From positions 1-24,140 of the IMG/VR virus record IMGVR_UViG_3300034062_004470: a DNA stretch of 24,140 nucleotides; one strand, 5' to 3'. Shown here one piece after another: positions 162-22,003 of the stretch. The position numbers and the translations under genes are program-made. The notes under the pieces are model-generated. The model was not told the origin of the DNA. It was given only the letters and a program-made list of their open reading frames with translations, and made no database searches. Positions within the stretch are counted from its first letter, which is position 1; each line of letters starts with the position of its first letter. Source of the stretch: a virus.

Positions 162-812
162 CTACTTAATATATACGTGTGCTGGGCTCATGTATCTAGT
201 ACCAGACACAATAGGCTTTACTTCGTGTATGTAAGGCTCTTGTGATGGAAACATTATTAGGCTTCCAGCTTTTGGCTTTATAGTCACATTATGGTTTGGG
301 AAATTAATCTCTCCGCCCTCATAATCATCATTAATATATGCTACTAAAGAAAATGCTAAATCTTTATTTCCATCTTGTCCATCAAAATGTGGGCCCATTG
401 ATTGTCCTTCATTCCAAGCTTTTATTGTTATGCGATCAAGATTTAGGTTATATTTATTTTTATCTAACTTTCTAGATTCCAAATATCTATCGGTGCACAT
501 TTGAAAAGCCATTGAAAAACTATTAGCAATATAAAGAGTTTTTTTATCTACCATGTCAGATCCAGTAGTTTTTTTTAAGGCAGACGCATTTATTGTTTTT
601 GTTTTACCGTATACTAGACTAGAATCATTGCTAGCAGTCCAATTTTCCCATTTAGATATTCTGGAATATGATTCTGGCTCTTGGTCTATTTTGTCTATAA
701 AATCTTTTAAATGTTCTGGAAAGCTTAAGGCATTTTCCCAATACCATATGTCGTTTGAAAGCATTTTAAGATCAAACATTATAAACTGCTTAAACTCTAC
801 ATTATTTTGCAT
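162..812 (-). CDS. 2-oxoglutarate/Fe(II) oxygenase, prolyl 4-hydroxylase-like (paralogue A)
   Basis: This 216-residue protein has the double-stranded beta-helix signature of 2OG-Fe(II) dioxygenases: H142-F-D144 (in GPHFDGQ), distal H196 (in YIHEVKP) and the 2-oxoglutarate-binding R206 (in SGTRY). Between them is the P4H-type stretch YINDDYEGGEINFP followed by KPKAGSLIMFPS. Such enzymes couple oxidative decarboxylation of 2-oxoglutarate to hydroxylation of a substrate, which cannot be read from sequence here. The N-terminal ~125 residues are not assigned. The start overlaps the end of the upstream oxygenase region by a TAAC-ATG junction (stop, one base, start), indicating co-transcription. An internal Met at residue 12 is a possible alternative start. 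It is the last of five paralogues and sits just before the collagen-like gene. Confidence 0.88.
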   Translation of the reverse strand: MQNNVEFKQFIMFDLKMLSNDIWYWENALSFPEHLKDFIDKIDQEPESYSRISKWENWTASNDSSLVYGKTKTINASALKKTTGSDMVDKKTLYIANSFSMAFQMCTDRYLESRKLDKNKYNLNLDRITIKAWNEGQSMGPHFDGQDGNKDLAFSLVAYINDDYEGGEINFPNHNVTIKPKAGSLIMFPSQEPYIHEVKPIVSGTRYMSPAHVYIK

Positions 813-813
813 G

Positions 814-1566
814 TTAGCTCTCTACTTCTGATGCTGGATATACTTCTCCACGGGGAGTTATTCTTAATCCTTTATTTCTGTAGTCTTCCCACTCAATAGC
901 CTCATCTGCTTGCATTGCTCTAACCTCAGCAAGTTCTGCCGCCCAAGCATCTCTAACTTCCTGTGGATAATCACTTTCTTCTCTATCATCCCAGAATGAT
1001 CCAAGAGTGTATCTTATAGATTTTTTAACTGTTGTAACTTCGTGCATGTTATGGAATCCTCCAGCAAATGTTACTAGGGTTCCAGTTTTTGGAACAATTG
1101 TTAATCCATGCTTAAAGTTTAAAATACCATCTTCAAAATCATCGTTTAAATAAAGAAAAGTTGCATATCTACTTCTAGTAAATGCTCCTGAAACTCCATC
1201 ATTAGAGGTATTGTCCGAATGCATATTTGCAAAAGCTCCTGGAGCCCATCTTTGAGAGTGCCAGCTTATTTGCGACAATTGTGCTGGATCTTTTTCAGCC
1301 ATATCTGCAGTAGCATCTATAACTCTTTGTCTAAGATCTACAAAAAAATCTCCTGGTAAGCCACAGGCAATTGTGTCTGGGTCATTTAGTTCTGGAGTGC
1401 CTGATGAGTATGACTCATAAAATGAAATTGGCATCCACTTCAATTGTTCTTTTTCCATCTTAATAGCTAGAACATCAATAATTGATTTACATTCATCTGG
1501 GGTTAAAAAATTGTCATATTGCACAATATCTGGCTTGTGTCTAGTTATAACCATATCTCTTTCCAT
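814..1566 (-). CDS. 2-oxoglutarate/Fe(II) oxygenase, prolyl 4-hydroxylase-like (paralogue B)
   Basis: This 250-residue protein carries H116-S-D118 (in ANMHSDNTS), distal H175 (in FHNMHEV) and R185 (in KSIRYTL), the complete Fe/2OG-binding set. The linking strand is LYLNDDFEDGILNF, a diverged version of the NDDYEGGE motif of its neighbours. A charged C-terminal tail of about 55 residues (from WDDREESDYP) is absent from paralogues A and D. Two starts are possible: ATG at 1566, two bases after the preceding stop, or the internal Met5. The first is used here because AAGGGGAT lies a dozen bases upstream. A GATAAT also lies six bases before this ATG, but it lacks the first T of a -10 box. Substrate unknown. 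Confidence 0.87.
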   Translation of the reverse strand: MERDMVITRHKPDIVQYDNFLTPDECKSIIDVLAIKMEKEQLKWMPISFYESYSSGTPELNDPDTIACGLPGDFFVDLRQRVIDATADMAEKDPAQLSQISWHSQRWAPGAFANMHSDNTSNDGVSGAFTRSRYATFLYLNDDFEDGILNFKHGLTIVPKTGTLVTFAGGFHNMHEVTTVKKSIRYTLGSFWDDREESDYPQEVRDAWAAELAEVRAMQADEAIEWEDYRNKGLRITPRGEVYPASEVES

Positions 1567-1568
1567 AA

Positions 1569-2414
1569 TTACATTATCCCCTTTTCTTTTTCAGCATCAA
1601 ATGGGACGCCAAATTGCTTTTCAACATGCTCTTCATATGTAACTGGAACTCCGTCATTAAAATAAACCATGTTTCTTTTATCGTCGTAATCAATTCTTTC
1701 TTGCTCCATTTTTGCCCATTTGTAAGCACCAAATTTTCTTTGGTTGGCAAGCCATTCTTCTGTGCCATTGTGAGGGGTCATTATAAAATTTCTAACAAAA
1801 AATTTCTCATTGCTATTAATTGTTTTTACCCCATGATAATATGGCTCTGTTGAGGGAAATACTAAAATGTCACCAGCTTTTGGCTTATGATTAATGAATT
1901 GCCCATTAATATAAAACTCTATATCTCCGCCATCGTAATCATCATTAATATACATTGTGCAGGTAATTGAAAATTTATCCCCAGGCATATCTTTTTGTGA
2001 TGTTATATGGTCTGTATGATACTGCATGGTAAGTTTACTCTTAAGGTTGTCAACTCCTGCATGATATTTAGAATAAGAGGATCCGCTGAAGCGCCAGCCT
2101 TCTGGCAACTCGATGTTGTGTCTTTCTATGTAGTCAGTGATAACTTTATTATATGCCGCCTCAACTTCTTCAACAAATGCCTTTTCTTTGATAAACATTT
2201 CTGTAGATTGAATTTCTGCAGGAACTTGCCTTATATCTTTTTTCTGAGTATACGTTCCAAAATGGGCCCATGGATCCCAAGTTTTTAAAAAATATTTTCC
2301 TTCTGAGGTCTTTTCTGAAGCGTTCATTACTTCATATAGTTGTGCTGGGTCTTTTAAGACATTTCTATAAACATCAACTTTTGGATAAAGCTCTATATGT
2401 TCTAATTCACTCAT
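1569..2414 (-). CDS. 2-oxoglutarate/Fe(II) oxygenase, prolyl 4-hydroxylase-like (paralogue C)
   Basis: This is 281 residues from the chosen start MSELEHIELYPK. The frame is open upstream to 2450, but ATG 2414 has AGGAGA upstream and overlaps the preceding stop as ATGA, so it is preferred. Metal ligands are H133-T-D135 (in MQYHTDHIT) and H194 (in PYYHGVKT). The position that normally holds the 2OG-binding Arg, ten residues after the distal His, is K204, as in paralogue F. The core contains YINDDYDGGDIEF and KPKAGDILVFPS. The N-terminal region resembles that of paralogue F (ELYPKVDVYRNVLKD against ELFPGVWVYRDVIKKD), so C and F form a subfamily. The C-terminal ~65 residues are an extra charged segment. 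Substrate unknown. Confidence 0.87.
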   Translation of the reverse strand: MSELEHIELYPKVDVYRNVLKDPAQLYEVMNASEKTSEGKYFLKTWDPWAHFGTYTQKKDIRQVPAEIQSTEMFIKEKAFVEEVEAAYNKVITDYIERHNIELPEGWRFSGSSYSKYHAGVDNLKSKLTMQYHTDHITSQKDMPGDKFSITCTMYINDDYDGGDIEFYINGQFINHKPKAGDILVFPSTEPYYHGVKTINSNEKFFVRNFIMTPHNGTEEWLANQRKFGAYKWAKMEQERIDYDDKRNMVYFNDGVPVTYEEHVEKQFGVPFDAEKEKGIM

Positions 2415-3088
2415 GGTTGTTTTTCTCCTGTATGTTTTTGTATCGTCCAAAAGAATGGAGATGTAAATCTATTTCCAGATTTTACTGGTCTTACCCCGTG
2501 TGTATAATTCATGTCACCTGGGAAAAAATATGCTGCTCCAGCTACTGGCTGAAATTCAATTCCATGTTGTGGGAAATATAATTCTCCACCTTCATAATCA
2601 TCGTTAAAATAAAATAAACCAGCCAGGTCATACCAAGGAAAATCATTTGCTCTTCCTTTTTCTGGGCCAGAATGAAATTCTTTGTCTGCATGTGGCTCTT
2701 GTCTTGCACCAACAGGCCACCTAACAATTGCTGGACCAGTTTCTTTTGCATCAACATTAAAAAATGCGTCTACCTCTATTTTAAGTCTTGCTATCATGCT
2801 ATAAATTAATTCTAAAATTGATGGGTCTGATGCCATTAAAGAGTTATATGTGCAAACTCTATCTTCCCAAACCTTATGGTCATATAAAACTAAACCATCG
2901 GCATCCCTATGTGTTTCTGTTATGTCCCAAATTTTATTATTGAGGGCAAAATCCATCAGCCTCTTACGTTCTTCTATTGTAAGGAAGTCTCTAATTTCAA
3001 CAATGTTGTCTGTTGAATTTCCAAAAAATCCAGACGGAGTAATAGATTTTGGTTTTTGATCTTCTGTCCATTGGTTTGCTAGCTTCAT
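2411..3088 (-). CDS. 2-oxoglutarate/Fe(II) oxygenase, prolyl 4-hydroxylase-like (paralogue D)
   Basis: This 225-residue protein has H133-A-D135 (in EPHADKEFH), distal H197 (in YTHGVRPV) and R207 (in SGNRF). The intervening core is FYFNDDYEGGELYFP then PVAGAAYFFPG. It is the most typical P4Hc-like member of the set. Its start overlaps the stop of the DUF6065-like gene as ATGA, and its stop overlaps the start of paralogue C the same way, so translational coupling is likely. TGATATAAT also lies six bases before its ATG, so it may in addition be made from a leaderless internal transcript. The substrate is not determinable from sequence. Confidence 0.9.
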   Translation of the reverse strand: MKLANQWTEDQKPKSITPSGFFGNSTDNIVEIRDFLTIEERKRLMDFALNNKIWDITETHRDADGLVLYDHKVWEDRVCTYNSLMASDPSILELIYSMIARLKIEVDAFFNVDAKETGPAIVRWPVGARQEPHADKEFHSGPEKGRANDFPWYDLAGLFYFNDDYEGGELYFPQHGIEFQPVAGAAYFFPGDMNYTHGVRPVKSGNRFTSPFFWTIQKHTGEKQP

Positions 3089-3813
3089 TTATCTATTATA
3101 TCATTTCCCCTGTTTAATTCATGATTGACTTTAAATCTAATAGCTTTTACTTGATGGCTTCCTATGGAATTTTTAAGATGATCTACGGCATCTCTATAAA
3201 AATTGGACCAAACTGCTTTTCTATTTAAATCGTAAATAACATTAGAGTATTCGGTTGAATCGAACTTGGGGTCTGGCAAAGATTCTACGCTATCAAAATT
3301 TATTTCTGAGTTTTGTAGGCCCTCTAGATCTATTGGCAATATTGCAATTATAGGTGTTCCCGCCTTTATCGTAATAACCTCGTTTGGCTTGGTTATCATC
3401 CAGGCACATGGCAATTCTCCTCTAAAAAATGATGTGCTTATTAGAGTTGTAAAAGGCACAGCACCGTCAATAAATAAATTTGGAACTGGCATAGATAGAA
3501 GACTTAAATTTTCTTCAGTAGAAAACATTATTCCTGTATTAAAACTTATAGTTGCATTGGCTCTACCAGAATAAGCATATTTTTCACCAGATAAAATTTT
3601 AACATGATCTGGGGTGCTGTCCGTTATTCCATCCCATATAAAAGATATATCTTCGGGAAACGATATTCCCCAGCCAAGCTGATTAGTTAGCCCTACTGGA
3701 AAACATTTGTATGCGTGAGAGTCCCAAGTGTTATCCATCCAATCTCTTTTAATTGAAAGAGGAAAAACTTCTCCGTAGCCATCTCTTATTGTATATGCCT
3801 TAATTTTATGCAT
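3085..3813 (-). CDS. DUF6065-like protein of unknown function
   Basis: This is 242 residues from MHKIKAYTIRDGYGEV; an upstream Met at 3837 would add eight residues inside the previous gene. The start at 3813 nearly abuts the stop of paralogue F. No metal-ligand HxD...H set is visible, so it is not another oxygenase of the flanking type. The features FPVGLTNQLGWGI (about residues 38-50), SGRANATISFNTGIMF (about 82-97) and a beta-rich middle with KPNEVITIKAGTPIIAILP resemble, from memory, the DUF6065 proteins often met in phages and in bacterial genomes near 2OG oxygenases. The C-terminal 45 residues look helical. Its position inside the oxygenase operon, overlapped at both ends, suggests a shared pathway. 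No biochemical role is claimed. Confidence 0.75.
   Translation of the reverse strand: MHKIKAYTIRDGYGEVFPLSIKRDWMDNTWDSHAYKCFPVGLTNQLGWGISFPEDISFIWDGITDSTPDHVKILSGEKYAYSGRANATISFNTGIMFSTEENLSLLSMPVPNLFIDGAVPFTTLISTSFFRGELPCAWMITKPNEVITIKAGTPIIAILPIDLEGLQNSEINFDSVESLPDPKFDSTEYSNVIYDLNRKAVWSNFYRDAVDHLKNSIGSHQVKAIRFKVNHELNRGNDIIDK
3095..3103 (-). promoter_or_regulatory. Extended -10 box inside the oxygenase operon, leaderless type
   Basis: The minus strand reads TGATATAAT, then AGATAA, then the ATG at 3088. The spacing of six bases is the same as at 141, 4519, 22438 and 23683. The box lies within the last codons of the DUF6065-like gene, so coding constraint could also explain it. Confidence 0.45.
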
Positions 3814-4519
3814 ACGAATTCTTGCCAGTTTTTGCATCTTCTTCTAGCCATCTGGTTCTTGCTTCAAAAAACTCTTGTCTGTGAGCATGATCATTATAAT
3901 CAAGCATTGTTACAATAGAAAACTTCATGCCATCTTCTACTGGCATTGCTCTATGTGAAAACAAATAAGTAGATGGGAAAATATATAAATCACCAGCTCT
4001 TGGCTTAATGTCTAAGCCTAATTTAGGGAAAAATAAATTTCCTCCCGCATAATCGTCATTTACATAAGCAACTAATGATACTGTAGCACTATATGAAAAT
4101 CCATGGTCGGCATGCTCTTGGAAATGTTGTCCCTTGCCGTATCTAATACAGTTCATGACTTCCCAATAATTCATCTTTACGTTATATTTAGCGCAATAGT
4201 CTGCAACTGCCACATCTTGTGCTTTTTTTAAATCAGACCATAATTCTCCAACTAGTTTCTGGGTTTCATTAGCTGGACTAATTATCTCTCCAATTTTAAT
4301 ATCTTCGCAATCTCTATATGATGGTATTCTATCACTATATCCAACAAAGCCGAATGTCCAATTGTATCTGGAATCTCCTTCTTTATTAGCAGAATTTCCT
4401 ATCGTGTTTAATCTATTAATAACATCTAAATCTTTTTTAATTACATCTCTGTATACCCACACGCCTGGGAAAAGCTCTTCTTTTGAAGAAAATCCATATT
4501 GGTCATTTATAGTAGTCAT
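3806..4519 (-). CDS. 2-oxoglutarate/Fe(II) oxygenase, prolyl 4-hydroxylase-like (paralogue F)
   Basis: This 237-residue protein is the first gene of the oxygenase operon. Ligands are H136-A-D138 (in FQEHADHGF) and H189 (in FSHRAMPV). The usual Arg ten residues later is K199 (in GMKFSIV), as in paralogue C. The core is AYVNDDYAGGNLFFP then KPRAGDLYIFPS. No Shine-Dalgarno site precedes the ATG, but TGATACAAT lies six bases upstream, so this message is probably leaderless. A strong terminator (4561-4594) insulates it from the tail operon. Its last codons overlap the start region of the DUF6065-like gene. Substrate unknown. Confidence 0.88.
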   Translation of the reverse strand: MTTINDQYGFSSKEELFPGVWVYRDVIKKDLDVINRLNTIGNSANKEGDSRYNWTFGFVGYSDRIPSYRDCEDIKIGEIISPANETQKLVGELWSDLKKAQDVAVADYCAKYNVKMNYWEVMNCIRYGKGQHFQEHADHGFSYSATVSLVAYVNDDYAGGNLFFPKLGLDIKPRAGDLYIFPSTYLFSHRAMPVEDGMKFSIVTMLDYNDHAHRQEFFEARTRWLEEDAKTGKNSYA

Positions 4520-4601: not shown

Positions 4602-5807
4602 TTAAGCTATTACTAGGAAGGAATTAACGATAAACCATGGCTGTGGAGATGTTCTAACATCATAAACAGTTGATTCTGCTTCACCCTTTTCAATTGAGGT
4701 TACTGGAGTTTCTTGGACTAGTCCATTTGAATCTACTCCTAGGATTATTTCTCCTATTTCAATTTCTCCTGCATTCTTATAGGTAATACCATTTGAGGTT
4801 TTTACAAATAAAGGCTGAGTTTCTGAGTAGTCTTTACCTCTGTAATTAAATCCAACTAGCTTTCCAGTTTTTTCTGTTACTGAAATAACTTCTGAATTTG
4901 TAAACTTAACTGTTGAATCTAATTGTCCAGATGTCTTATTTGCGGTTATAGATTCAAGATTAATATTAGAGCTATCAACTGTTACTACTTGATCCCCAAC
5001 TTTAATATCTTTAGCCTTTACCCATCCAGTATTAGTGAAAATAACTGATTCTGGTGCTAAACATTTACCCTTAAATCCTGGTGGGGAAAAGAACCCTGGT
5101 GGGGCAAAGAACCCTGGTGGGGCAAAGAACCCTGGTGGGGCAAAGAACCCTGGTGGGGCAAAGAACCCTGGTGGGAAGAACGGTGGGAAGAACGGTGGGA
5201 AGAACGGTGCCTGAGTAGTAATAGTTGCTGTATTATCTGAGGCTGCTGACCGACCATTAGCATTATCTGCATAAACATTATAATACTGAGATGTATTAGC
5301 AGTATCTGCAATAGTTATTGTTAGGGCTGTTGTATTTCCACTTGTTCCATCATTACCTGCAACATAATAGTTGGTTATTGCAGATCCACCATTTGCTGGT
5401 TGTGTCCAAGTAATTGTGTTTTGGTTAACTCCTGCAGTTGCGCTTGGGCTTTGTGGAGCTTGAGGTACAGTTGTTGCAGTAATGCTATTTGAGGCAGCAG
5501 ATGCTGCGCCAGTTCCTACTGCATTTGTTCCTGTTACTGTAAATGTATATGCTGTATTTGATTGTAAACCAACTACAGATATTGGAGAAGATGCTCCTGA
5601 AGCAGTAAATGATCCTGGGGAGGATGTTACTGTAAAGGATGTGGCAGCAGGTGAATTTTCTGGCAAAGAAAACGTTACGTCAGCCCGTCCATTATTATAT
5701 GCACGATTTGCTGGTACGTTTGTTGCTGTTACTGACGTTGGTGCCATTGGCTCCAAAAAGTCATTTGATGCCTGTGCCTTTTTACCGAATTTCTTACCTA
5801 CTGCCAT
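4602..5807 (-). CDS. Tail adhesin-like protein: two Fn3-like domains, Phe/Pro/Gly repeats, C-terminal Hint domain
   Basis: This 401-residue protein has GGAGAT ahead of its ATG. Residues 20-113 and 114-200 look like two fibronectin type III or Ig-like domains (LQSNTAYTFTVTGTNAVG; NTITWTQPANGGSAITNYYV). Residues 201-247 are low complexity: three FFPP units and then five units of GFFAPP type. At C249 (GKCLAP) a Hint domain begins and runs exactly to the C-terminus (153 residues). It has the typical start GWVKAKDIKVGDQVVT and typical ending VYDVRTSPQPWFIVNSFLV. Two catalytic features look lost: the block-B His is Gln (SETQPLF), and the terminal His-Asn is Ile-Ala. The nucleophile position C249 is kept. 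It is a paralogue of the protein at 10691-12868. It is probably a virion surface protein; autocleavage is uncertain. Confidence 0.82.
   Translation of the reverse strand: MAVGKKFGKKAQASNDFLEPMAPTSVTATNVPANRAYNNGRADVTFSLPENSPAATSFTVTSSPGSFTASGASSPISVVGLQSNTAYTFTVTGTNAVGTGAASAASNSITATTVPQAPQSPSATAGVNQNTITWTQPANGGSAITNYYVAGNDGTSGNTTALTITIADTANTSQYYNVYADNANGRSAASDNTATITTQAPFFPPFFPPFFPPGFFAPPGFFAPPGFFAPPGFFAPPGFFSPPGFKGKCLAPESVIFTNTGWVKAKDIKVGDQVVTVDSSNINLESITANKTSGQLDSTVKFTNSEVISVTEKTGKLVGFNYRGKDYSETQPLFVKTSNGITYKNAGEIEIGEIILGVDSNGLVQETPVTSIEKGEAESTVYDVRTSPQPWFIVNSFLVIA
5077..5212. repeat. Tandem 18-bp and 12-bp coding repeats (Phe/Pro/Gly linker)
   Basis: Plus-strand units of CCTGGTGGGGCAAAGAAC repeat about six times. 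A shorter unit, GGTGGGAAGAAC, then repeats three times. They encode GFFAPP and FFPP on the minus strand. Near-identity of units points to recent slippage and likely copy-number variation. Related FFPP units occur at 11160-11290. Confidence 0.9.
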
Positions 5808-5840: not shown

Positions 5841-7676
5841 TTACGCCATCAAGTCGCCGTAGACAACCCATGTATTTGCTGCTCTCTTAAAGAGAGTACA
5901 AGATGACCAGGTTGTACGAAGTTTTAGGCCAGGTGTTGCGTTAACTGTAACTGTTCCTGATACTGGGGCAATTGTTACTTGTCCAGCTCCAGTCTGCAGA
6001 ATATCAATAGATGTTCCGATTGGGAAATCTAGAGTTGCATCTGCTGGTATTGTTAAAGTTATAGGTGATCCTGATCCCATTTCGATCAAGTCATCTCTTT
6101 CAGTTAGTGATGAAAGTGTATATGATTCTGTCTTCCGAACGATTGGTGTTAAAGAATCTACCTTTAATCCAAGGCTAGTTGTTACTGATGCTGCAAAGTT
6201 TGCGTCATCTCCAAGTGCTGCAGCAAGTTCATCAAGTGTATTCATTGCTGCTGGTGCACCAGATATAAGTGCACTTACCTGTGATGTTGCGTCTGCAATT
6301 GCTTCAGACTTTGCTGTTGCGATTGCTGTGCTTGTTGCTGTTGATACTGGCTTATTAGCATCAGAAGTATTATCAACATTACCAAGTCCTAAAGTGGCTG
6401 GTGTTACCGCAGCAACCTCTGACTTAAGTGCTAGAAGTGCTGTATCTGCAATTCCATGAACATTTGTAGTATCTGATTCATGGGTTGAAAGAGCGGTAAC
6501 CGCTGCTGTAATTTGTGTTTGAACTGATGATGTAACTCCATCTAGGTATCCAATTTCTGTTGAAGAAACTGTACCAATTGATGTTGTACTTGGAAGAGTT
6601 ACTGTACCAGTAAATGTTGGTGATGCCAAATCTGATTTAGCTGCAAGAGATGCACCAAGTCCAGAAATTTTGTCTTGGTGAATTGCTGCAGTACCACTTA
6701 CATGATCATTTGTAATTGCAAGATCTGCAATTTTTTCTGCAGTTACTGCATCAGCTGCAATTTTTTCTGCAGTTACTGCGCCAATTGAAATTTTTGCTGC
6801 AGTTATTGAATCGGTTGCTAAATCTGCTGTCTCTACAGAACCTGCAGGAAGTGTTACTGATCCTGTTGCTACTAAATTAGTTAAGCTGACATCTGTTGCT
6901 GTAAGGCCTCTAAGTTCAAGGTCGTCTAGGCTTCCCTGGGCAAAATTAATTGTAGGGCCTGGGGTATCAGTTACTCCTGTAAATAGTTTCCATTTATTAG
7001 CAGATGCATCTCTTACAAATCCTGTGTGATTAGCAACTCCATCATTGTGTTTAGCTACAAATCCTAGATCTAAAGCATTGCCTGCGTTGGTTGAACCCAA
7101 TTGAATCATTGGGTCTTCTGTTGTAAAGGTAGCTGTGTCTAATGTTACAGTTGTTCCGTTAACAAAAAGGTTTCCAGCTAATGTTAAATTTTGTGCCTCT
7201 ATGTTTTCACTTGTTGTAATATTTGTTGATAATCCTATTAGATTCAATTGTGATTTTGGCACTTGAGTGTTTGCATCAAGAGAGGCGACTCCGTTTGCTG
7301 CTCCACGATCCGCATTCTCTAAGTATGTACTGGCTGTTGAATTTGTAAGTCCAGTTACTGCTGAATCTACGTATGACTTAAGAGCAACAACGTTGCTGTC
7401 TACGTTAATTGTAATTGTGTTTGAGCCATCATTGTAGGTCTTTGTTAAACCTGCACCCATTGTAAGTGCTGTATTGATTGCGTCTTGTGAAATTTCTCCA
7501 ATTTCAGGTGCATCGGCTGCTATGTAAGAAAGGGAATTCCATGCGGTGGATCCGTCTCCAACTTTGATTTTTCTAGTGTCTGTTTCAACGCCTAGTTCTC
7601 CTGCTGCAAGTATTGGATTTACTCCAGACCAGTCTGATGCTGATCCTCTTCGAACTTGAATTCTTACTGTTGACAT
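5841..7676 (-). CDS. Large tail fibre protein with Mtd-like N-terminal domain
   Basis: This 611-residue protein has GGGAGA upstream of the ATG. The first ~55 residues (RIQVRRGSASDWSGVNPILAAGELGVETDTRKIKVGDGSTAWNSL, with internal breaks not shown) match the N-terminal trimerising domain found in phage tail fibres and in Bordetella phage Mtd. The middle contains heptad-like and collagen-free shaft repeats, including TAEKI units near residues 295-315 and the IGYLDGVTSSVQTQI motif typical of tail fibres. The C-terminal ~100 residues form a beta-rich domain (FPIGTSIDILQTGAGQVTI ... TWVVYGDLMA), a common distal receptor-binding type in phages. No C-type lectin variable region or reverse transcriptase was seen, so Mtd similarity is limited to the N-terminus. 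It has its own promoter at 7709-7717. Confidence 0.85.
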   Translation of the reverse strand: MSTVRIQVRRGSASDWSGVNPILAAGELGVETDTRKIKVGDGSTAWNSLSYIAADAPEIGEISQDAINTALTMGAGLTKTYNDGSNTITINVDSNVVALKSYVDSAVTGLTNSTASTYLENADRGAANGVASLDANTQVPKSQLNLIGLSTNITTSENIEAQNLTLAGNLFVNGTTVTLDTATFTTEDPMIQLGSTNAGNALDLGFVAKHNDGVANHTGFVRDASANKWKLFTGVTDTPGPTINFAQGSLDDLELRGLTATDVSLTNLVATGSVTLPAGSVETADLATDSITAAKISIGAVTAEKIAADAVTAEKIADLAITNDHVSGTAAIHQDKISGLGASLAAKSDLASPTFTGTVTLPSTTSIGTVSSTEIGYLDGVTSSVQTQITAAVTALSTHESDTTNVHGIADTALLALKSEVAAVTPATLGLGNVDNTSDANKPVSTATSTAIATAKSEAIADATSQVSALISGAPAAMNTLDELAAALGDDANFAASVTTSLGLKVDSLTPIVRKTESYTLSSLTERDDLIEMGSGSPITLTIPADATLDFPIGTSIDILQTGAGQVTIAPVSGTVTVNATPGLKLRTTWSSCTLFKRAANTWVVYGDLMA

Positions 7677-10181: not shown

Positions 10182-10421
10182 TTACCATTTTGATAAAGGA
10201 CAGACTGCTGCTTCCATTGCTGTTTTCATTTTCATAATACAGCCACATTGTTTACATTGTGTGGTTAATGATATGAACTCAGGGCATCCCCTGCAAATAT
10301 TTAGTCTTTGTTCTTTTTTTTCGTCAGTAGTCCATACGGTATTTGGATTTAGCATGTCCCATGGCTTTACGGTATTTGGGTCAACTAGGTTAGCTTTTAT
10401 TGTTTGCCACCTTGAAGTCAT
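10182..10421 (-). CDS. Small Cys-rich protein, probable zinc-binding
   Basis: This 79-residue protein has AAGGAT before the ATG, which is two bases after the preceding stop. Residues 40-79 hold the pattern C43-x2-C46, C56-x2-C59-x-C61 and C74, in NICRGCPEF ... QCKQCGCIMKMKT ... CPLSKW. This pattern recurs in small proteins of tailed phages, often beside tail genes, and is probably a zinc ribbon. The N-terminal half (PWDMLNPNTVWTTDE) has no recognised domain. A role in virion assembly or structure is possible but not shown. Confidence 0.75.
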   Translation of the reverse strand: MTSRWQTIKANLVDPNTVKPWDMLNPNTVWTTDEKKEQRLNICRGCPEFISLTTQCKQCGCIMKMKTAMEAAVCPLSKW

Positions 10422-10675: not shown

Positions 10676-10699
10676 ATTATAGCATAATTTTTATGCTAT
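10676..10699 (-). terminator. AT-rich terminator hairpin overlapping an extended -10 promoter
   Basis: A perfect 9-bp stem ATAGCATAA / TTATGCTAT with a 3-base loop (10679-10699) is followed on the minus strand by AATTTTT. The hairpin's second arm is part of TGCTATAAT (10676-10684), an extended -10 box for the GTG-start gene at 10654. The stem overlaps the stop codon of the adhesin gene. Confidence 0.6.
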
Positions 10700-12868
10700 G
10701 GCTATAGTAGAATTAACAATAAACCAAGGTTGTGGAGAGGTTCTAATATCATAAACTATTGACTCAAAGTTATCCGTCTCAATAGATTCTACTACGATAT
10801 CTGAAACCACGCCATCCAAGCCTATACTTATAATGACATCCCCAATATTGATATCTCCAGCATTTCTGTATTCTATACCGCCCGAATTCTTAATAAATAT
10901 AGGCTGAGTAATAGAATAGTTCTTCCCTATTTCATTAAATCCAATTAGCGTTGAAGTTTTTTCTGTTACAGAAATTACCTTAACGTTTTCAAATTGAATA
11001 TTTTCTGATAAGCTTTGTGATGTTTTATCTTTTAGTACAGAATCAAAGCTTATGTCTGATTTACTAATAGATATTAGCTCGTCTCCAACTCGTATATCTT
11101 TTGCTTTAACAAAACCATTTTTAGATAGAGCCAAAGCATCTGGTGCTAAACATTTACCCTTAAATCCTGGTGGGAAGAACGGTGGGAAGAACGGTGGCGC
11201 AAATGTTGGTAGGGGTCCTTTGCCTCCAAAAGTTGGTGGAGAAAAAAACTCTGGTGGAGAAAAAAACTCTGGTGGGAAGAACGGTGGCGCAAATGTTGTT
11301 GCGGGATTTGTTGATTGACATTCTGGATAGCTTGTTCCAAATGTGCACTGGCGAGAGTAGCCGCTGCCAGAGCCAGAGTTATCAAAACCAGGATCGGTGT
11401 AACTACAATTACCTACGCCAGCTCCAGGACTAGATGTTGTGCATTTCCATGTGTTAGTTTGTACGGGAGCTGGGTTAGTTGATTGACATTCTGGATAGCT
11501 TGTTCCAAGTGTGCACTGGCGAGTATAACCGCTGCCAGAGCCAGAGTTATCAAAACCAGGATCGGTGTAACTACAATTACCTACGCCAGCTCCAGGACTA
11601 GATGTTGTGCATTTCCATGTGTTAGCTGGTGGAGGATTAGTTGATTGACATGCTGGATAAGCTGTTCCAAATGTACACTGGCGAGAGAAGCCACTGCCAG
11701 AGCCAGAGTTATCAAAACCAGGTTTTGTATAATCACAATTACCCACGCCTCCACCATTAATAGAAGTTGTGCAGTACCAGTCATTTGGTGCTGGTGGATA
11801 TGTTATAGTTAAAGCTGGAGAAGAAAGCCAAGCGGTTTCTGAAAATCTTGGAGATGTTCCAATAATTAATACTACAAAAGACCCGAATGTATCTGGAGAC
11901 GCACCAGGTCGATCTATGTCTAAGAAATTAGTACTAGGACTTGAGGATGCAGAGGTTGCATATACCGAACCATCATTGTACACTGTCCAACTAGTTACAG
12001 TTATGTTATTAGCAGACCAAACCATCTTGCCTCCGTAACTATAAGAAAGCATTCCTGCTGCAACAGAAGGTTTATTTGGTTTCAAATCCGTAACCGATGC
12101 ATTTTTACCGTATCCGCTTAATGACGTTCCAGAAACGTTTGATGTATTCATTGGGTTAATTAATATTCCTAAAGTTCCCGAAGCAGAGCCTGTGTCAATT
12201 GTAAACTTACATGTAGTTCCTGATGTAGAATAAACTCCCTTTGCAGAATCTGTATTGTTTACCATACTTGTAACTTCTGTAAGTGCTACTTCTGGTCCTT
12301 GGTATTGTATATAGTAATCATTAGCACCCCTTACCTTTTCCCATGTAAATTCTACTACACCATTTGATACAACATTAACAGTTATATCTCCTAGGTTGGC
12401 GGGAGCAATTACTGGGCTTGATAGAGTGTATATATCTCCTGAATTTTTGCCATCTGCATTAGTAGCCGAAACTTTACATCTAACAGCGTAACCAACATAT
12501 TTTAATGTTTGTTGTGAATCCCATTCATCTTCAGTTAATGCCAAAGAACTTGATGTTTTATCAAGTATGTTAGACCAATTTGATGTAGGATATGGAGCTT
12601 TTTGCCATTGATATTCAAATGTTGTTGGCGAATTTTCCCAAGTGCCATTTGTTGTTAAAACTGTTTGTTCTGCAGCATAAAGAAATGATGAGCCTTGTAA
12701 AGAAAGGGTTGGTAAAACTGTATTAACTGGAACTATTCCTAGTAAGTTTTTCCACTCAGACCCATTCCATACATAGGCTGCTTTAGAATCATTCCAAGAT
12801 GTTCCATCGTGGACTTGAATCTTTTTTAAAGGATTCCAACTGGAACCATCAAAAATGTTTAGCGGCAT
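10691..12868 (-). CDS. Large tail adhesin-like protein: Ig/Fn3-like domains, three Cys-rich repeats, Pro/Phe linker, Hint domain
   Basis: This 725-residue protein opens with a triple SWN-type tail motif (DGSSWNPLKKIQVHDGTSWN). Residues ~50-360 are Ig/Fn3-like (ADGKNSGDIYTLSSP; VVEFTWEKVRGANDYYI). Residues 362-523 are three ~50-residue modules, each with four Cys: W-x-C-T-T, G-N-C, R-Q-C-T and a final C-Q. Residues 524-571 are an FFPPEFFSPP-type linker. At C573 a 153-residue Hint domain runs to the C-terminus, the same length as in the paralogue at 4602-5807 and with the same changes (block-B His to Gln in SITQPIF; final His-Asn to Ile-Ala). It is probably displayed on the virion. Whether the Hint domain cleaves is open. 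Confidence 0.82.
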   Translation of the reverse strand: MPLNIFDGSSWNPLKKIQVHDGTSWNDSKAAYVWNGSEWKNLLGIVPVNTVLPTLSLQGSSFLYAAEQTVLTTNGTWENSPTTFEYQWQKAPYPTSNWSNILDKTSSSLALTEDEWDSQQTLKYVGYAVRCKVSATNADGKNSGDIYTLSSPVIAPANLGDITVNVVSNGVVEFTWEKVRGANDYYIQYQGPEVALTEVTSMVNNTDSAKGVYSTSGTTCKFTIDTGSASGTLGILINPMNTSNVSGTSLSGYGKNASVTDLKPNKPSVAAGMLSYSYGGKMVWSANNITVTSWTVYNDGSVYATSASSSPSTNFLDIDRPGASPDTFGSFVVLIIGTSPRFSETAWLSSPALTITYPPAPNDWYCTTSINGGGVGNCDYTKPGFDNSGSGSGFSRQCTFGTAYPACQSTNPPPANTWKCTTSSPGAGVGNCSYTDPGFDNSGSGSGYTRQCTLGTSYPECQSTNPAPVQTNTWKCTTSSPGAGVGNCSYTDPGFDNSGSGSGYSRQCTFGTSYPECQSTNPATTFAPPFFPPEFFSPPEFFSPPTFGGKGPLPTFAPPFFPPFFPPGFKGKCLAPDALALSKNGFVKAKDIRVGDELISISKSDISFDSVLKDKTSQSLSENIQFENVKVISVTEKTSTLIGFNEIGKNYSITQPIFIKNSGGIEYRNAGDINIGDVIISIGLDGVVSDIVVESIETDNFESIVYDIRTSPQPWFIVNSTIAIA
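11300..11785. repeat. Three tandem coding repeats (~162-168 bp) of a four-Cys module
   Basis: Units starting at TTGATTGACA occur at 11311, 11479 and 11641. The first two are almost identical over ~145 bp, while the third is diverged. They encode the Cys modules with GFDNSGSGSG in the adhesin-like protein. Confidence 0.9.
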
Positions 12869-14829: not shown

Positions 14830-15801
14830 TTATCCTACTACAACTACTCTGTATTCTCCAGCAGTTGGTGCTAAAGCAAAGTTAACGACTACAGCATTTG
14901 CATTTGATCTCTGAACATCTGCTTCTACCTGAGCAAAAGGAGTAGCAGCCTCAAATATTTGAACAGTTACATCTGTTGTTCCAAGATTGTGTGTTATCGT
15001 GTAAGAGGTTGCTGATGCGCCTAATGTTTCTGAATATTTTCTAGCAATTGCATGATATGCGGTTCCATTATTTGTTAATGTCCATGTATCAGATGTTTCA
15101 TTCCATAAAATTTCTGTATCTGTTGAAGTTCCACGCTCTACAACAATTCCTGCATCTGTTGTGGGTGTTCCAGTAAATCCGCTATTAAGCTTTACCTTAT
15201 TGTCTTCAATATTAATCTGTGTGGTATTTACAGAGTTAACAGTTCCAATAACATTTAAGTTTCCGCCAACTTGTAAGTTACCAGTTATTTCTACATTGTC
15301 TGGCAAACCAATTGTTACTGCGGCATTGTGTCCACTATTTGGAGAAACTGTAACTTCATTTGCTGTTCCAACAATAGTTGCTACATAGTCACCTGTTGTT
15401 TGCGTATCTAATGGTATAACTAAATTTGTATCGCTTGCTGATGTTAAACGACCCTGTTGGTCTACTGTAAATGTTGGTACTTTTGTAATTGATCCGTATG
15501 TGCCTGCTGTTACTGCGGTATTATCTAAATCTATTGTTGTTACATTCGTTGCGTCGTCAAATGTTTTTGTTAAGCCAACTCCGCCTTCTACGTAAGACCC
15601 AATTGCGTCTGTAATTACTTCTAGAGAGCCAGAAGTAGAAATCCACTCTGTACCATTCCAGAAATACAGAATATTGTTGCCAGTGTTATAGTAAATCTGA
15701 CCTGATACTGGGCTACTTGGTGCTGCGCCTAAGTTTTGAATTCTAGCATTGAGCAACTCATTTTTGTTGAGGTCAATACTAACTAAAAATTTTCTTGCCA
15801 T
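14830..15801 (-). CDS. Tail fibre protein
   Basis: This 323-residue protein has AAAAGGAGAT before its ATG. It starts MARKFLVSIDLNKNELLNARIQ, a frequent opening of phage fibre proteins, then SGQIYYNTGNNILYFWNGTEW. The middle has beta-helix-like segments (EVTVSPNSGHNAAVTIGLPDN; NLQVGGNLNVIGTVNSVN). The C-terminal ~70 residues (ATSYTITHNLGTTDVTVQIFE ... GEYRVVVVG) are a globular domain widely found at the ends of phage tail fibres. It is in the middle of the tail operon. Confidence 0.84.
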   Translation of the reverse strand: MARKFLVSIDLNKNELLNARIQNLGAAPSSPVSGQIYYNTGNNILYFWNGTEWISTSGSLEVITDAIGSYVEGGVGLTKTFDDATNVTTIDLDNTAVTAGTYGSITKVPTFTVDQQGRLTSASDTNLVIPLDTQTTGDYVATIVGTANEVTVSPNSGHNAAVTIGLPDNVEITGNLQVGGNLNVIGTVNSVNTTQINIEDNKVKLNSGFTGTPTTDAGIVVERGTSTDTEILWNETSDTWTLTNNGTAYHAIARKYSETLGASATSYTITHNLGTTDVTVQIFEAATPFAQVEADVQRSNANAVVVNFALAPTAGEYRVVVVG

Positions 15802-15816
15802 TTTTCTATCTCCTTT

Positions 15817-16254
15817 TTAGGACAGATATGCTGTCCCTGAAAATGGCTGGGCCATTGTCAATGTTAGTCTACTAGTACTATTATAGTCTATACCTGTTTC
15901 CAGTATATCACCTGAGCTTGATTTAACAGATACGTTTGGATGAAAAAGTAAATTGTGGTTTATTACTACTGAATACAGTCCATTTACTGGACCAGTGATC
16001 TGACTCATTTCCCAAGAATACATAAAGGATACCTGTTTATCTAAAACAAAGCTCTTCTCTACGCTCCAAGTATTTGAGGTTGGGGATTTTGGCCCCCAAA
16101 ATCTTGTTGTTAAGGTATCAAAATAAAAATCTCCAGGGACGCCTAGAGAATTTGCTGGATTTCCCTCTCCGCTAATAATTGTTCTTCCAGGGGAACCTGA
16201 AGCTCTTACTACTACTAATGGATTATTTTCGGTGACAATTAGGCGGGTTGCCAT
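15817..16254 (-). CDS. Tail-associated hypothetical protein
   Basis: This 145-residue protein starts MATRLIVTENNPLVVVRASGSPG. It has a short Gly-rich collagen-like hint (SGSPGRTIISGEGNP) followed by GVPGDFYFDTLTTRFWGPK, the G-x-(Y/F)-x-(D/N)-T tail unit with a WGPK motif common in fibre proteins. The C-terminal half resembles a beta-sandwich (GLYSVVINHNLLFHPNVSV ... SGTAYLS) like fibre end domains. The start overlaps the previous stop as TAATG, with no good Shine-Dalgarno site, so coupling is likely. Confidence 0.75.
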   Translation of the reverse strand: MATRLIVTENNPLVVVRASGSPGRTIISGEGNPANSLGVPGDFYFDTLTTRFWGPKSPTSNTWSVEKSFVLDKQVSFMYSWEMSQITGPVNGLYSVVINHNLLFHPNVSVKSSSGDILETGIDYNSTSRLTLTMAQPFSGTAYLS

Positions 16255-16598
16255 TATAGGGTTACCGCCCTATTTAATGTTAAATATCCTTCTAGCAATC
16301 TTGTTACATTTACACTAGGGTCAACTAAAACTAAATCATAAGCAGATTTTGGATAAAAAAGCTTTTTTGTTCTATCTGCTGAAATAGAAACTGAAAGTTT
16401 TCCAAGTGAAGGTGTTATTGTTATTCCATCTATTTCTGAAAGGCTAAAGGCTAATTTTTTTCCACCTTGAGTATCTCTTACTTGCATTTTTGCTGTGTGG
16501 TGATTTAATTGTATAGGTTGATTGTCTTCATCGAGATATTGCAACTCAAAAGTAAACGTTGCATTCTCGTCTACTTGAAAATTTTTTTGAGCTGCCAT
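16254..16598 (-). CDS. Baseplate or tail-tip associated protein, Ig-like fold
   Basis: This 114-residue protein has AGGGGT ahead of the ATG. The pattern NFQVDENATFTFELQYLDED..., then HTAKMQVRD, then SVSISADRTKKL, then SAYDLVLVDPS and VTRLLEGYLTLNRAVT is typical of a small beta-rich phage protein that lies next to tail fibre genes in many tailed phages. It is the first gene of the tail operon. Its promoter (TGCTAAAAT, 16633-16641) lies within the hairpin after the holin gene. Confidence 0.75.
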   Translation of the reverse strand: MAAQKNFQVDENATFTFELQYLDEDNQPIQLNHHTAKMQVRDTQGGKKLAFSLSEIDGITITPSLGKLSVSISADRTKKLFYPKSAYDLVLVDPSVNVTRLLEGYLTLNRAVTL

Positions 16599-16622
16599 TT
16601 TTTACCCCTAAAAAAGAAAATA

Positions 16623-16647
16623 CCCTTACACTATTTTAGCATAAGGG
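16623..16647 (-). terminator. Terminator-like hairpin containing an extended -10 box
   Basis: CCCTTA and TAAGGG pair, with inner CTA/TAG pairs. The minus-strand hairpin is followed by the T-rich TATTTTCTTTTTT. The loop side contains TGCTAAAAT (16633-16641), an extended -10 box about 35 bases before the ATG at 16598. It separates the nrdJ-holin unit from the tail operon. Confidence 0.5.
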
Positions 16648-16980: not shown

Positions 16981-18915
16981 CTAAGATGAAATATCTACAA
17001 GTTCGCAATTTCCGTCTGAGCTGCAAGCCAGGGTTGCATTTGTTGAAGTTCCGTCTTCTGTCTCATAAAATGATAGATCTTCCCAGCGAATATTAATAGG
17101 CATTTTTGCTACTAAGGTTTCGTATTCTTCTTTTGAAATTTCTTGATATGGGGCCTGCTTGTATGTATGCTCTGAGTGAGGCAGAAATGAAATACCAGAA
17201 ACTTCATCAAAGTTTTTATATACCCATGCTCCTACTTCCATCCACTCATCTTCTTTTACAGAAACTGTAATAGAAGGCTTGTGTTCACACCAAGCACGTT
17301 GATATACAAGCCAAATGTTTAGGTGATCAATTGCTGTTAAATCATTTCTTACGATTGCACCCTCTGGTGCTTTTACTGGAAATGAAAATACATAAGTTTC
17401 ATTCGGCTTCATAAAATCATCTTCTACTGGAATACCAACTTCTTTTAAAAATGTTGAGATTGGATCTCCTTTTGAACCACGAACTGTACGAACATAATAT
17501 GGTGAATGCCAAGGATGCATGCCTGAAGATACTCCAACTAATTGAGATACTGTTCCAGAAGGTTTTACACATGTAATTGCCGCAGATTCAGGAATTCCAA
17601 TTTTTCCAGACTCTTCTTTGTTTACTTCTCTTGCTTTTTCACGCAATGTCATCAAGAATGCTTCAAGTGCAATTAAGTCTTCTTTACCAGACATAAACTT
17701 ATGACCAAATTGTCCAGTTAAAGAAACACCCAATAGTCTTTCTTCTTCTGTGTTGTCTTTCCAAATTTTACGAAGGTACTTAAAGTCTGTTAATGTAGAC
17801 TGCCATGTCCCAAGAATAGTTGCTAGCTCTACCTTACGCTGAATGTCTTTTTTAGTATCGTTTTCACGCAATACGACTTCTGAAAGATTACAGAATTGAT
17901 ATGGGCGCAAAATAATTTCAGAACATGGGTTAGTTCCATAATGAATGTCTGGATCTCTTCGACCAAACTTTGCAGCCTGTGCTTGTGCTGCAGCTACATT
18001 ATATATACCACGTTCTCCAGATTTAGAATCGTATAGAGATTTCCATTCTGCAATAAACTGTTCCATTTCTGGTTTACGAGAATATGCAACTGAGTTATTA
18101 GACAAAGCACGTTGTGGACTCTGCTCCCACCAATTACCAGATTTGGCTTGTGCCATTTCTATATCATTAATATTAGAAAGAGAAATCATTGCAGAGCGTC
18201 TAACGCCACCCACAACTACAACTTCTCCAATTTTACACATAATGTCGTGGCACTCAATTGGCTTAAGGTTTCTACCAGTTGCATTCTTAAATTTTGCAAT
18301 AGTGAAATCAAAAAGATTTACCAAGGGTTGAGGTCCAGATGATCTTCCACCCATTGTCTTGAGTCTTGCTCCTGCTGGTCTAACTTTAGAAACATCTATG
18401 GCTGGAATTTGTCCAGACCAAAGTAATGCAAGTAATTCACGATATGCCCTTGCCCATCCTTGTTTTGAATCTTCTACAGTTATTACAGTAGTAGATTTTT
18501 CCAAAGATTCTGGAACGGCAGGAAGCTTATTAATATACTTATACTCAACGGAGAATCCAACCCCAGTACCACACATCAAAACATACATTGTTTCGTCAAA
18601 AGATCTTGGAGAATCTACTGGCAAAAAAGCGCAGTTATATCCTGCTACATTATCTCTTTCTAGTGCGGCGCCAGATGTCATTACTGCTCTCATTGATGGC
18701 ATTACATTTCTTTCAAACACAAACTCTTTTAATTCCGCAACTAGCTTTTCATTTGGAATATAATTACAATTTTGTTTTAAATGATTTGTCATAAAAGAAA
18801 AATATCTATCTACTGTTTCTCCCCATGTTTCTCTGCGTGATTCTGACTCTACCCATTTAGCATATCTAGATAGTGCAATAAAATTTTCATAAGGATTATC
18901 AATAGTATTTTTCAT
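16981..18915 (-). CDS. nrdJ: Adenosylcobalamin-dependent ribonucleoside-triphosphate reductase (class II)
   Basis: This 644-residue protein has the class II monomeric layout: C95 (in GYNCAF), C331 and E333 (in NPCSEI), and C342 (in FCNLSE). The 11-residue spacing of 331 and 342 is that of Lactobacillus leichmannii C408 and C419, where C408 carries the thiyl radical and C419 pairs with C119 (here C95). The C-terminus ends CSSDGNC, two cysteines with five residues between that could act as the redox shuttle. Motif KPSGTVSQLVG (451-461) is a substrate-binding loop typical of the family. It makes deoxynucleoside triphosphates for phage replication and needs B12 from the host. It is transcribed with the holin-like gene from a consensus promoter at 19104-19131 via a leader of about 180 bases. 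Start at ATG 18915, with AAAGGCG upstream. Confidence 0.95.
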   Translation of the reverse strand: MKNTIDNPYENFIALSRYAKWVESESRRETWGETVDRYFSFMTNHLKQNCNYIPNEKLVAELKEFVFERNVMPSMRAVMTSGAALERDNVAGYNCAFLPVDSPRSFDETMYVLMCGTGVGFSVEYKYINKLPAVPESLEKSTTVITVEDSKQGWARAYRELLALLWSGQIPAIDVSKVRPAGARLKTMGGRSSGPQPLVNLFDFTIAKFKNATGRNLKPIECHDIMCKIGEVVVVGGVRRSAMISLSNINDIEMAQAKSGNWWEQSPQRALSNNSVAYSRKPEMEQFIAEWKSLYDSKSGERGIYNVAAAQAQAAKFGRRDPDIHYGTNPCSEIILRPYQFCNLSEVVLRENDTKKDIQRKVELATILGTWQSTLTDFKYLRKIWKDNTEEERLLGVSLTGQFGHKFMSGKEDLIALEAFLMTLREKAREVNKEESGKIGIPESAAITCVKPSGTVSQLVGVSSGMHPWHSPYYVRTVRGSKGDPISTFLKEVGIPVEDDFMKPNETYVFSFPVKAPEGAIVRNDLTAIDHLNIWLVYQRAWCEHKPSITVSVKEDEWMEVGAWVYKNFDEVSGISFLPHSEHTYKQAPYQEISKEEYETLVAKMPINIRWEDLSFYETEDGTSTNATLACSSDGNCELVDISS

Positions 18916-21011: not shown

Positions 21012-21155
21012 ATGGCACATCATTTCGCTAACTTTATGAGAAGTCCACAATTCACTCATCCGCAAAAATGTAAGGATGACTGTAAGGTTGAACACGAAAA
21101 TAAAAATCATCAATCAAAATTTGAAAAAATTTTAAAAAGAATGATGGGTAAATAA
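21012..21155 (+). CDS. Small basic His-rich protein (47 residues)
   Basis: The product is MAHHFANFMRSPQFTHPQKC then KDDCKVEHENKNHQSKFEKILKRMMGK. The reading frame is open 72 bases further upstream, but this ATG lies just after a good -10 box and the terminator hairpin occupies the upstream part, so 21012 is preferred. It has two Cys (C-x3-C) and five His, possibly metal-binding. Its stop overlaps the next ATG as TAATG, so it is coupled to the oxygenase gene. Function unknown. Confidence 0.6.
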   Translation: MAHHFANFMRSPQFTHPQKCKDDCKVEHENKNHQSKFEKILKRMMGK

Positions 21156-22003
21156 TGTTTTACGACAGAGAAGATTGTATAAAAGCTTCATTTTTCCCAG
21201 ATGATTACGGCACACAAAGCGGAGTGTTTATATTTAAAGGATTTTATACAGACGAAGAGTGCAAGACCGTGGAAAACGAGTTAAAAGATTACGATATGAA
21301 AGAAAAATATAGAGATACTTTAATCAGCTGGTATTCTAATAAAATTAGCCCCCCACTTGCTTCCATACATCCACTTTGGGAAAAGGCAAGCGAACTTTTG
21401 TATCCAGAGTATGTTATGCATCCTCAAGGCAACGTATTAATTATTACTCCAGAAATGAACGAGGGAATGTTTACACACTCTGATTCTCCTGGAAAAGGAG
21501 AATGTCACAGACTTTCCCAAGTAGACGTTTGGAAAACTTGTTGTGAATTAGATTTTGGCTTAGTTGCATATTTTGGAGAGTTTGAAGGCGGAGAAATATT
21601 TTACGTAAACATAGACAAAGACGGAAACAGATCTGAAGGAGTTCCCGCAGAAAATAATTTAAAAATAAAGCCAGAAAGAGGAGATCTAGTAATTCACGGG
21701 GCATTTTCTCCACACGCTCACGGAGTTAATCCAGTCACATCTGGTAGAAGATATGCCTTCTCAAACTTTGTGTTAAAGGCAGAAGATAATCCTGGATCTT
21801 TTTATAACTACAAGACCCCAGAGTATTACGAGCAAATTAAAGATAAAGATACTCTTACACTAGAAGAATTTACTGCTATATGGATGAAACCATTAAAAGA
21901 AAATCCTCAATTTACAAAAGAAAAAATTAAGAAGTACCAGGCTTCTGGCCTAGAGGGTCCAGAGCTATCTGATGCATATATGGGTGAATTTAAAGAACAT
22001 TAA
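21155..22003 (+). CDS. 2-oxoglutarate/Fe(II) oxygenase (sixth member, separate locus)
   Basis: This 282-residue protein has H108-S-D110 (in MFTHSDSPG), H189 (in PHAHGVNP) and R199 (in SGRRY), the complete metal and 2OG-binding set. Core motifs are LVAYFGEFEGGEIFYVN and KIKPERGDLVIHGAFSPH. It lacks the NDDY start of the cassette motif, so it belongs to a more distant branch than paralogues A-F. The C-terminal ~65 residues (TPEYYEQIKDKDTLTLEEF) are an added helical segment. It is translationally coupled to the small His-rich gene. The neighbouring methyltransferase suggests, but does not prove, a role in small-molecule or glycan modification. Confidence 0.87.
   Translation: MFYDREDCIKASFFPDDYGTQSGVFIFKGFYTDEECKTVENELKDYDMKEKYRDTLISWYSNKISPPLASIHPLWEKASELLYPEYVMHPQGNVLIITPEMNEGMFTHSDSPGKGECHRLSQVDVWKTCCELDFGLVAYFGEFEGGEIFYVNIDKDGNRSEGVPAENNLKIKPERGDLVIHGAFSPHAHGVNPVTSGRRYAFSNFVLKAEDNPGSFYNYKTPEYYEQIKDKDTLTLEEFTAIWMKPLKENPQFTKEKIKKYQASGLEGPELSDAYMGEFKEH

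Follow-up and report, generated by a model that had tools for sequence, protein, structure and literature searches.

What does a phage do with a whole row of prolyl-hydroxylase-type enzymes? Aquatic phages commonly carry 2-oxoglutarate (2OG)-Fe(II) oxygenases among their accessory genes, with no agreement so far on what they do. The question is raised by a 24,140-nt stretch of viral DNA (positions 1 to 24,140 of IMG/VR record IMGVR_UViG_3300034062_004470), which is called the window here at its full length. At its left end, five such oxygenase genes (A, B, C, D and F) and a gene of the DUF6065 family (E) lie on the - strand in the order F-E-D-C-B-A, and F adjoins T1, the gene of a likely tail protein with repeats built on two adjacent prolines (PP). 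We conclude, with a rough probability of 0.7, that this cassette is a dedicated tail-protein modification module, which hydroxylates the PP repeats of T1 and of a second repeat protein, T6.

An initial annotation, made from the letters alone, had described five overlapping or abutting paralogues of prolyl 4-hydroxylase (P4H) type in one phage operon. All five open reading frames (ORFs) are present on the - strand at 162-4519, their coordinates bear out the overlaps and close junctions, and all exceed the 27-bit cut-off of PF13640 (A 47.5, B 31.9, C 37.3, D 33.3 and F 49.9 bits). The iron ligands are found at the residues that had been named, with C numbered from its ATG, and the DDYxGG core that had been ascribed to four of the five is present in A, C, D and F, B having DDFEDG. 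The DUF6065-like gene reported within the operon is E, which scores 99.7 bits against PF19541 (cut-off 26.6). When 170 oxygenases, taken from the window and from 29 loci, were aligned, the iron triad (H, D, H) and the 2OG-binding K/R were kept in 170 of 170 rows, which argues against idle copies. The five oxygenases match phrog_61, as does a sixth oxygenase of the window, G, which is borderline for PF13640 (26.1-27.4 bits).

In profile searches against the Protein Data Bank (PDB), the best solved relatives of F were P4Hs (E-value 8.7e-8), that of Bacillus anthracis being the closest. D also matched P4Hs and, in addition, prolyl 3-hydroxylase 1 (E-value 1.1e-5). F was the oxygenase chosen for structure prediction. 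Its AlphaFold2 model (43 sequences; predicted local distance difference test score, pLDDT, 90.6) has the double-stranded beta-helix fold of prolyl hydroxylases and resembles 3gze, an algal P4H with (Ser-Pro)5, with Z 19.8 and a root-mean-square deviation (rmsd) of 2.2 over 173 residues. Prolyl hydroxylases occupy the first 24 ranks among the fold matches listed and account for 47 of these 50. Family, the fold of F and the intact sites thus agree with the assignment as P4H-type 2OG oxygenases.

The idea of a local expansion within one phage operon did not hold. In a search with F, the best 80 of 105 loci were kept (F identities from 100% down to 57%); among these, the order F-E-D-C-B-A was found in all 64 loci having at least 4.2 kb behind F, 50 of them uninterrupted and 14 with an extra gene of the same types in the row. 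A tree was built from the same 170 sequences, and in it each of A, B, C, D, F and G formed one pure clade (15, 27, 22, 28, 31 and 7 tips, respectively; support 0.93-1.0), in a test that took tips at least 45% identical to the window gene and therefore leans towards purity. The paralogues are old orthologous groups, and their order is conserved in many phages. Recent tandem duplication was considered and rejected: A, B, C, D and F are pairwise 22.8-50% identical over partial stretches (matches of E-value above 0.01 being left out) and fall into separate clades across phages. Since orthologues of G lie directly behind A in several relatives (L062, L063, L065 and L079 among others), G is probably part of the set.

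The initial annotation had suggested an assay with phage tail peptides, a sound choice: the window itself holds a candidate peptide. T1 consists of an fn3 match, the tract FFPPFFPPFFPPGFFAPPGFFAPPGFF... and a weak Hint match with a Cys directly after the tract. The DNA of the tract contains an 18-bp unit in 5.5 copies (98% match, 5077-5175), and the repeat unit of the protein is PPxFF[A/S/G]. Both Hint scores are under the cut-off (Intein_splicing, E-value 4.5e-4; Hint_2, E-value 0.0035). A similarly weak match was obtained with the T1 of L063 (E-value 2.9e-4), and no Hint-type match appeared in the profile scan of the L068 T1. Because a count of Phe after PP is biased in proteins selected by the pattern, the residues were recounted in 36 dereplicated T1 proteins from loci found through the cassette and not chosen by repeat pattern. 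Phe stands two residues after PP in 528 of 558 cases; the residue immediately after PP is F (172), G (130), S (102) or another; and the spacing from PP to PP is mostly 6 (262) or 4 (221). With PP spaced by 6 or 4, T1 has no continuous Gly-X-Y repeat; PPG is frequent, making up 477 of at least 1380 repeat units. Among 124 repeat proteins left after dereplication, the chain stops no more than 60 residues past the last PP in 51. In another 60, a Cys comes within 20 residues of that PP and at least 100 further residues follow, a criterion by which alone they are counted as Hint-like; the other 13 continue with another sequence.

The linkage of repeat and cassette was analyzed from three directions, which partly share contigs. 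The first started from the cassette, defined as an F-E pair with E at least 45% identical to that of the window and at least 2.6 kb upstream. An ORF with the PP repeat ends within 1.7 kb of F in all 97 loci (redundant), and in all 28 after dereplication.

The second started from the repeat, searched with a degenerate DNA pattern that found at least 119 loci (8 of 119 without an in-frame repeat ORF). Among the matches listed, 78 repeat ORFs had 2.5 kb downstream, and 63 of them remained after dereplication. An oxygenase follows within 1.6 kb downstream in 55 of these 63, as against 3 of 251 dereplicated other genes of related phage loci, and E lies within 3.5 kb of 49 of the 63. The exceptions (10 of 78; 8 of 63 dereplicated) are second repeat genes, of the T6 or a short type. 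Six of the eight are on contigs that carry the cassette, or its oxygenases and E, elsewhere, and the other two (L168 and L178) are on contigs ending inside T1. As for the exceptions dropped by dereplication, the L260 record has E and five PF13640 matches, and the 13.5-kb record of L217 has neither.

The third direction started from T1, with peptide patterns outside the repeat, and after dereplication gave 44 T1-like genes that had 4 kb of sequence behind them. The repeat is carried by 36 of them, and the cassette follows 32 of these 36. The four exceptions are second repeat genes; the contig of L143 is short, so that of the cassette beside the other copy no more than the first oxygenase can be seen. 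Behind the eight T1-like genes without the repeat the cassette was found in no case (0/8), a single oxygenase being present in one. Because the PP state switches only about twice on the T1 tree, this 0/8 counts for far less than eight independent cases, and the Fisher p of 2.8e-6 overstates the case.

Two records, G008 and G009, were at one point taken for a cassette without a repeat. The strict pattern had missed the T1 upstream, which bears differently spelled PP repeats (PPHFPPFFPPYF, 21-26 copies), so they are not exceptions. The same spelling is found in the T1 of L317 and L320, where a GPxGPx collagen-like protein is encoded behind the cassette (15655-16635 and 15661-16641, respectively); these phages have a second protein after E, and that of L317 matches phrog_7084. 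In a control with cellular DNA (genome_contigs), the repeat pattern occurred in 32 stretches, 30 of them single matches; 24 ORFs were obtained, and none of the 15 with room had an oxygenase nearby. This control is weak, since its matches are not long repeats.

The repeat is also found on other carriers. One is a short protein of about 100-150 residues (L185, L228, L230, L258 and others), which has the same repeat and occupies the position after T2, the tail-fibre-like gene that stands upstream of T1 in the window. Most genes of this type are accompanied by E, by an F-like gene and, on the opposite strand, by a D-like one. Another, in L257, is a 785-residue protein with the same repeat, and an F-like ORF overlaps the end of its gene. 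None of the other carriers that were compared gave a BLAST match to the window proteins at an E-value of 1e-5. Such unrelated carriers beside these oxygenases make the strongest case that the enzymes are associated with the repeat itself and not with the protein bearing it. By eye the short carrier had looked PASTA-like, an idea that was dropped, as Pfam found nothing in two members scanned. From the divergent N- and C-terminal parts of the paralogues, the initial annotation had suggested different substrates or specificities; the neighbourhood as a whole points to one shared kind of substrate for the enzymes, the PPxF repeats of the adjoining tail proteins.

E is a fixed partner of the oxygenases in the cassette. 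Its model (47 sequences, pLDDT 90.9) resembles dUTPases, which make up 50 of 50 among the matches listed (best Z 11.2, rmsd 5.0 over 122 residues). A Pfam scan of E at E-values up to 1 gave DUF6065 alone and no dUTPase profile, and phrog_7084 was matched weakly (E-value 7.3e-5). No mention of DUF6065 was found in the open-licence PubMed Central (PMC) literature searched. E may bind the substrate and so assist the oxygenases.

The T1 homologues without PP are natural negative controls for the proposed substrate. They carry Phe-rich tracts at the same place, such as GAFGAFGAF, FGFTPFGFTP or FSPFGVFG, and three of them (L118, L119 and L122) have one PP, at the very end of the tract. A neighbour gene of about 677 residues behind T1 is common to both kinds of phage (82-85% identical in the comparisons of L065). 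Its distance from T1 is 7.3-9.1 kb with the cassette (one contig behind L065 and L100; L135) and 0.86-5.0 kb without it (L101, L104, L109, L118, L122 and L139); in L135, a third repeat gene lies 16.9 kb from the neighbour gene.

Ten PP-less loci were examined. In place of the cassette, eight of them carry another family in two or three copies, recognisable by the pattern H[DE]H...HG...PH...RIT.AYD, for example at L102 14672-15984, L109 13546-16305, L118 7374-9283 and L139 8652-9907. The same eight (8/8) have Phe-rich repeats with single prolines. H[DE]H is kept in 20 of 22 members in the PP-less loci (18 of 22 dereplicated members were aligned) versus 0 of 10 members in the PP phages. By its motif pattern this family might also consist of 2OG oxygenases; a search of the PDB gave no useful relative (best E-value 0.32), and four members scanned had no Pfam match over the cut-off. 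Two near-identical phages with no repeated proline in the tract (L101 and L104, 2/2) have neither the cassette nor the H[DE]H family, and an E-like phrog_7084 protein is present in them. E-like proteins occur in six of the ten PP-less loci, including four of the eight with single prolines, and were not found in L118, L119, L122 and L138. It is possible, though on balance doubtful, that tail repeats are generally matched to enzymes: PP to the prolyl-hydroxylase cassette and E, single prolines to the H[DE]H family and proline-free tracts to an E-like protein only, as an enzymatic code for finishing tail tips.

As we picture the process, A, B, C, D and F would hydroxylate the repeat prolines with O2 and 2OG during synthesis of the tail proteins. 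The number of enzymes may reflect the task: there are two prolines per unit, two possible ring positions per proline and many copies to be processed; ordered action would also be conceivable. Where a Hint domain is present, it probably cleaves itself off, and the modified tract would become a free C-terminal tip; other T1 proteins simply stop at the tract. If T1 is part of the virion, as we suppose, the modification could benefit the phage through stiffness, solubility or receptor binding.

Several observations weigh against this proposal. The few state changes on the T1 tree have been mentioned, and one substrate does not readily account for five enzymes. PF13640-type genes are also present in PP-less loci, one in L138 (1.5 kb behind T1), two each in L102 and L111 (5.5-6.7 kb) and two in L109 (7.0-7.6 kb), and in records of about 110 kb further ones lie outside the cassette. 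Neither E nor T1 found a match in the collection of isolated phages. The cyanophage relatives of these oxygenases have other locations; one copy, in ACG-2014f, stands between replication genes, without PP repeats. Near relatives of F or D are present in two cyanophages and in two single-cell records of marine origin, and counts of PP and of repeated 4-mers in the stretches read gave no PP-Phe repeat gene.

The cassette might instead modify another tail or virion protein, or residues of T1 other than proline, such as Phe, and the PP repeat would then be correlated by descent only. We consider this unlikely. The T1 tree would allow it, Phe flanks nearly every unit, and PF13640 enzymes are generally known to vary in substrate. 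However, it leaves unexplained why unrelated repeat carriers have the same neighbours, and fold and profile favour prolyl hydroxylases. Proline is preferred to Phe as the target because of the enzyme fold and because the cassette is absent where the tract is Phe-rich without PP.

It is quite improbable that the oxygenases serve host metabolism or signalling, for instance by drawing down 2OG, and merely ride in the tail operon. Such a role has been proposed for cyanophage 2OG oxygenases in passages of PMC3037559 and PMC4164917, and the PF13640 genes outside the cassette would be in keeping with it, but it predicts neither that the cassette tracks PP repeats, even on unrelated proteins, nor that the enzymes are close to peptide-binding prolyl hydroxylases. 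An action on nucleic acid (AlkB-like demethylation or DNA hypermodification) is very remote: a passage of PMC3037559 suggests DNA repair for cyanophage 2OG proteins, some relatives are filed as 'DNA endonuclease' in PHROGs, and AlkB appears at rank 50 among the fold matches of F (Z 16.3), but prolyl hydroxylases dominate those matches and the genes sit in a tail operon.

If the PP repeats are indeed the substrate, phage tails would undergo an oxygen-dependent post-translational modification by a dedicated multi-enzyme cassette, and the locus would encode a PP-Phe repeat material together with its own enzymes. The enzymes themselves are of a known kind. The prolyl hydroxylase of chlorovirus PBCV-1 (vCPH, 5c5t) is likewise virus-encoded and has the same fold as F (Foldseek E-value 1.9e-10; Z 17.2). 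It is, however, a single enzyme of an algal virus, whereas five paralogues lie here in a tailed phage beside a PP-Phe repeat protein. The substrates of vCPH are collagen-type. 4-Hydroxyproline in viral proteins is the subject named in the title of Eriksson et al. (1999), which PMC9301287 cites. The P4Hs of B. anthracis (3itq and 5hv0) and Pseudomonas putida (4iw3) are both among the nearest folds to F; they are cellular enzymes, and the titles of their solved entries concern EF-Tu, not repeat tail proteins. Collagen-like phage tail fibres resemble T1 in being fibre-type proteins with proline-containing repeats, but T1 lacks their Gly-X-Y register.

The marine-phage 2OG-Fe(II) oxygenases share PHROG 61 with all five enzymes and G. 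The reports on them name no substrate and describe no side-by-side arrangement, in contrast to the adjacent, ordered cassette with E and a repeat gene described here. According to a passage of PMC3037559, cyanophages have multiple 2OG oxygenases per genome, for which 2OG modulation and DNA repair are proposed. For pelagiphages, part of PMC9599517 describes eight non-orthologous types, nearby but not adjacent and often with ferrochelatase. Phage 2OG proteins are called structurally similar to human EGLN3 in a section of PMC12774648, and a Baltic Sea survey states, in an excerpt of PMC9301287, that virus use of prolyl 4-hydroxylase 'remains cryptic'. In the open-licence PMC literature searched, we recognised no paper that connects prolyl hydroxylases of phages with repeats of a tail protein, and found no description of a cassette of several such enzymes accompanied by a PP-Phe repeat tail protein of its own. 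The locus now offers a concrete candidate substrate in the same operon.

The features of the window are collected in Table 1. By megablast, the window had no match among 50,697 phage records; its closest relatives sit on contigs of up to about 110 kb. Its - strand carries a series of tail-fibre-like genes, two of them with an Mtd_N domain, which ends with T1 and is followed by the cassette at the left end.

Table 1. Oxygenase cassette, repeat proteins and associated genes, in window positions
Feature	Positions	Strand	Remarks
Oxygenase A (PF13640)	162..812	-	iron triad H142-x-D144...H196
Oxygenase B (PF13640)	814..1566	-	H116-x-D...H175
Oxygenase C (PF13640)	1569..2414 from ATG (281 residues); ORF from TTG to 2450	-	H133-x-D...H194
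Oxygenase D (PF13640)	2411..3088	-	H133/H197; profile also matches prolyl 3-hydroxylase 1
E, DUF6065 (PF19541)	3085..3837	-	predicted dUTPase-like fold
Oxygenase F (PF13640)	3806..4519	-	adjoins repeat protein T1; H136/H189; predicted fold nearest peptidyl-prolyl hydroxylases
T1, likely tail protein, proposed substrate	4602..5807	-	fn3 domain, PPxFF repeat tract, weak Hint match
DNA of T1 FFAPPG / FFPP repeat tract	5077..5209	-	18-bp and 12-bp units
Hint-type domain of T1	4605..5063	-	first Cys directly after repeat tract; Hint_2 and Intein_splicing matches below cut-offs
T2, tail-fibre-like, upstream of T1	5841..7676	-	Mtd_N (major tropism determinant N-terminal) domain
T6, second PPxF-repeat protein, second candidate substrate	10691..12868	-	Hint-like C terminus
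Oxygenase G	21155..22003	+	orthologues directly behind A in several related phages

In T6, the PPxF tract and the Hint-like end are preceded by repeats of about 56 residues that contain Cys (168-bp unit, 2.7 copies); among related phages, the length of the T6-like ORFs differs greatly. A small DUF6171 protein with several Cys is encoded at 10182-10421, and in many relatives such a gene is located between the repeat genes. A ribonucleotide-reductase-like gene lies within the tail region of the window (16981-18915); a second, distant one (about 27%) is found behind the cassette in other phages. The gene at 23132-23683 has a weak JmjC_2/cupin match (E-value 2.7e-4, under the cut-off) and perhaps encodes a further, different 2OG oxygenase. 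In Synechococcus phage S-CAM7 (L362 1122-8618), two long proteins, one containing GATG 62 times and the other 22 times, are followed by a glycosyltransferase and a 2OG-Fe(II) oxygenase, which may be another arrangement of repeat plus modifier.

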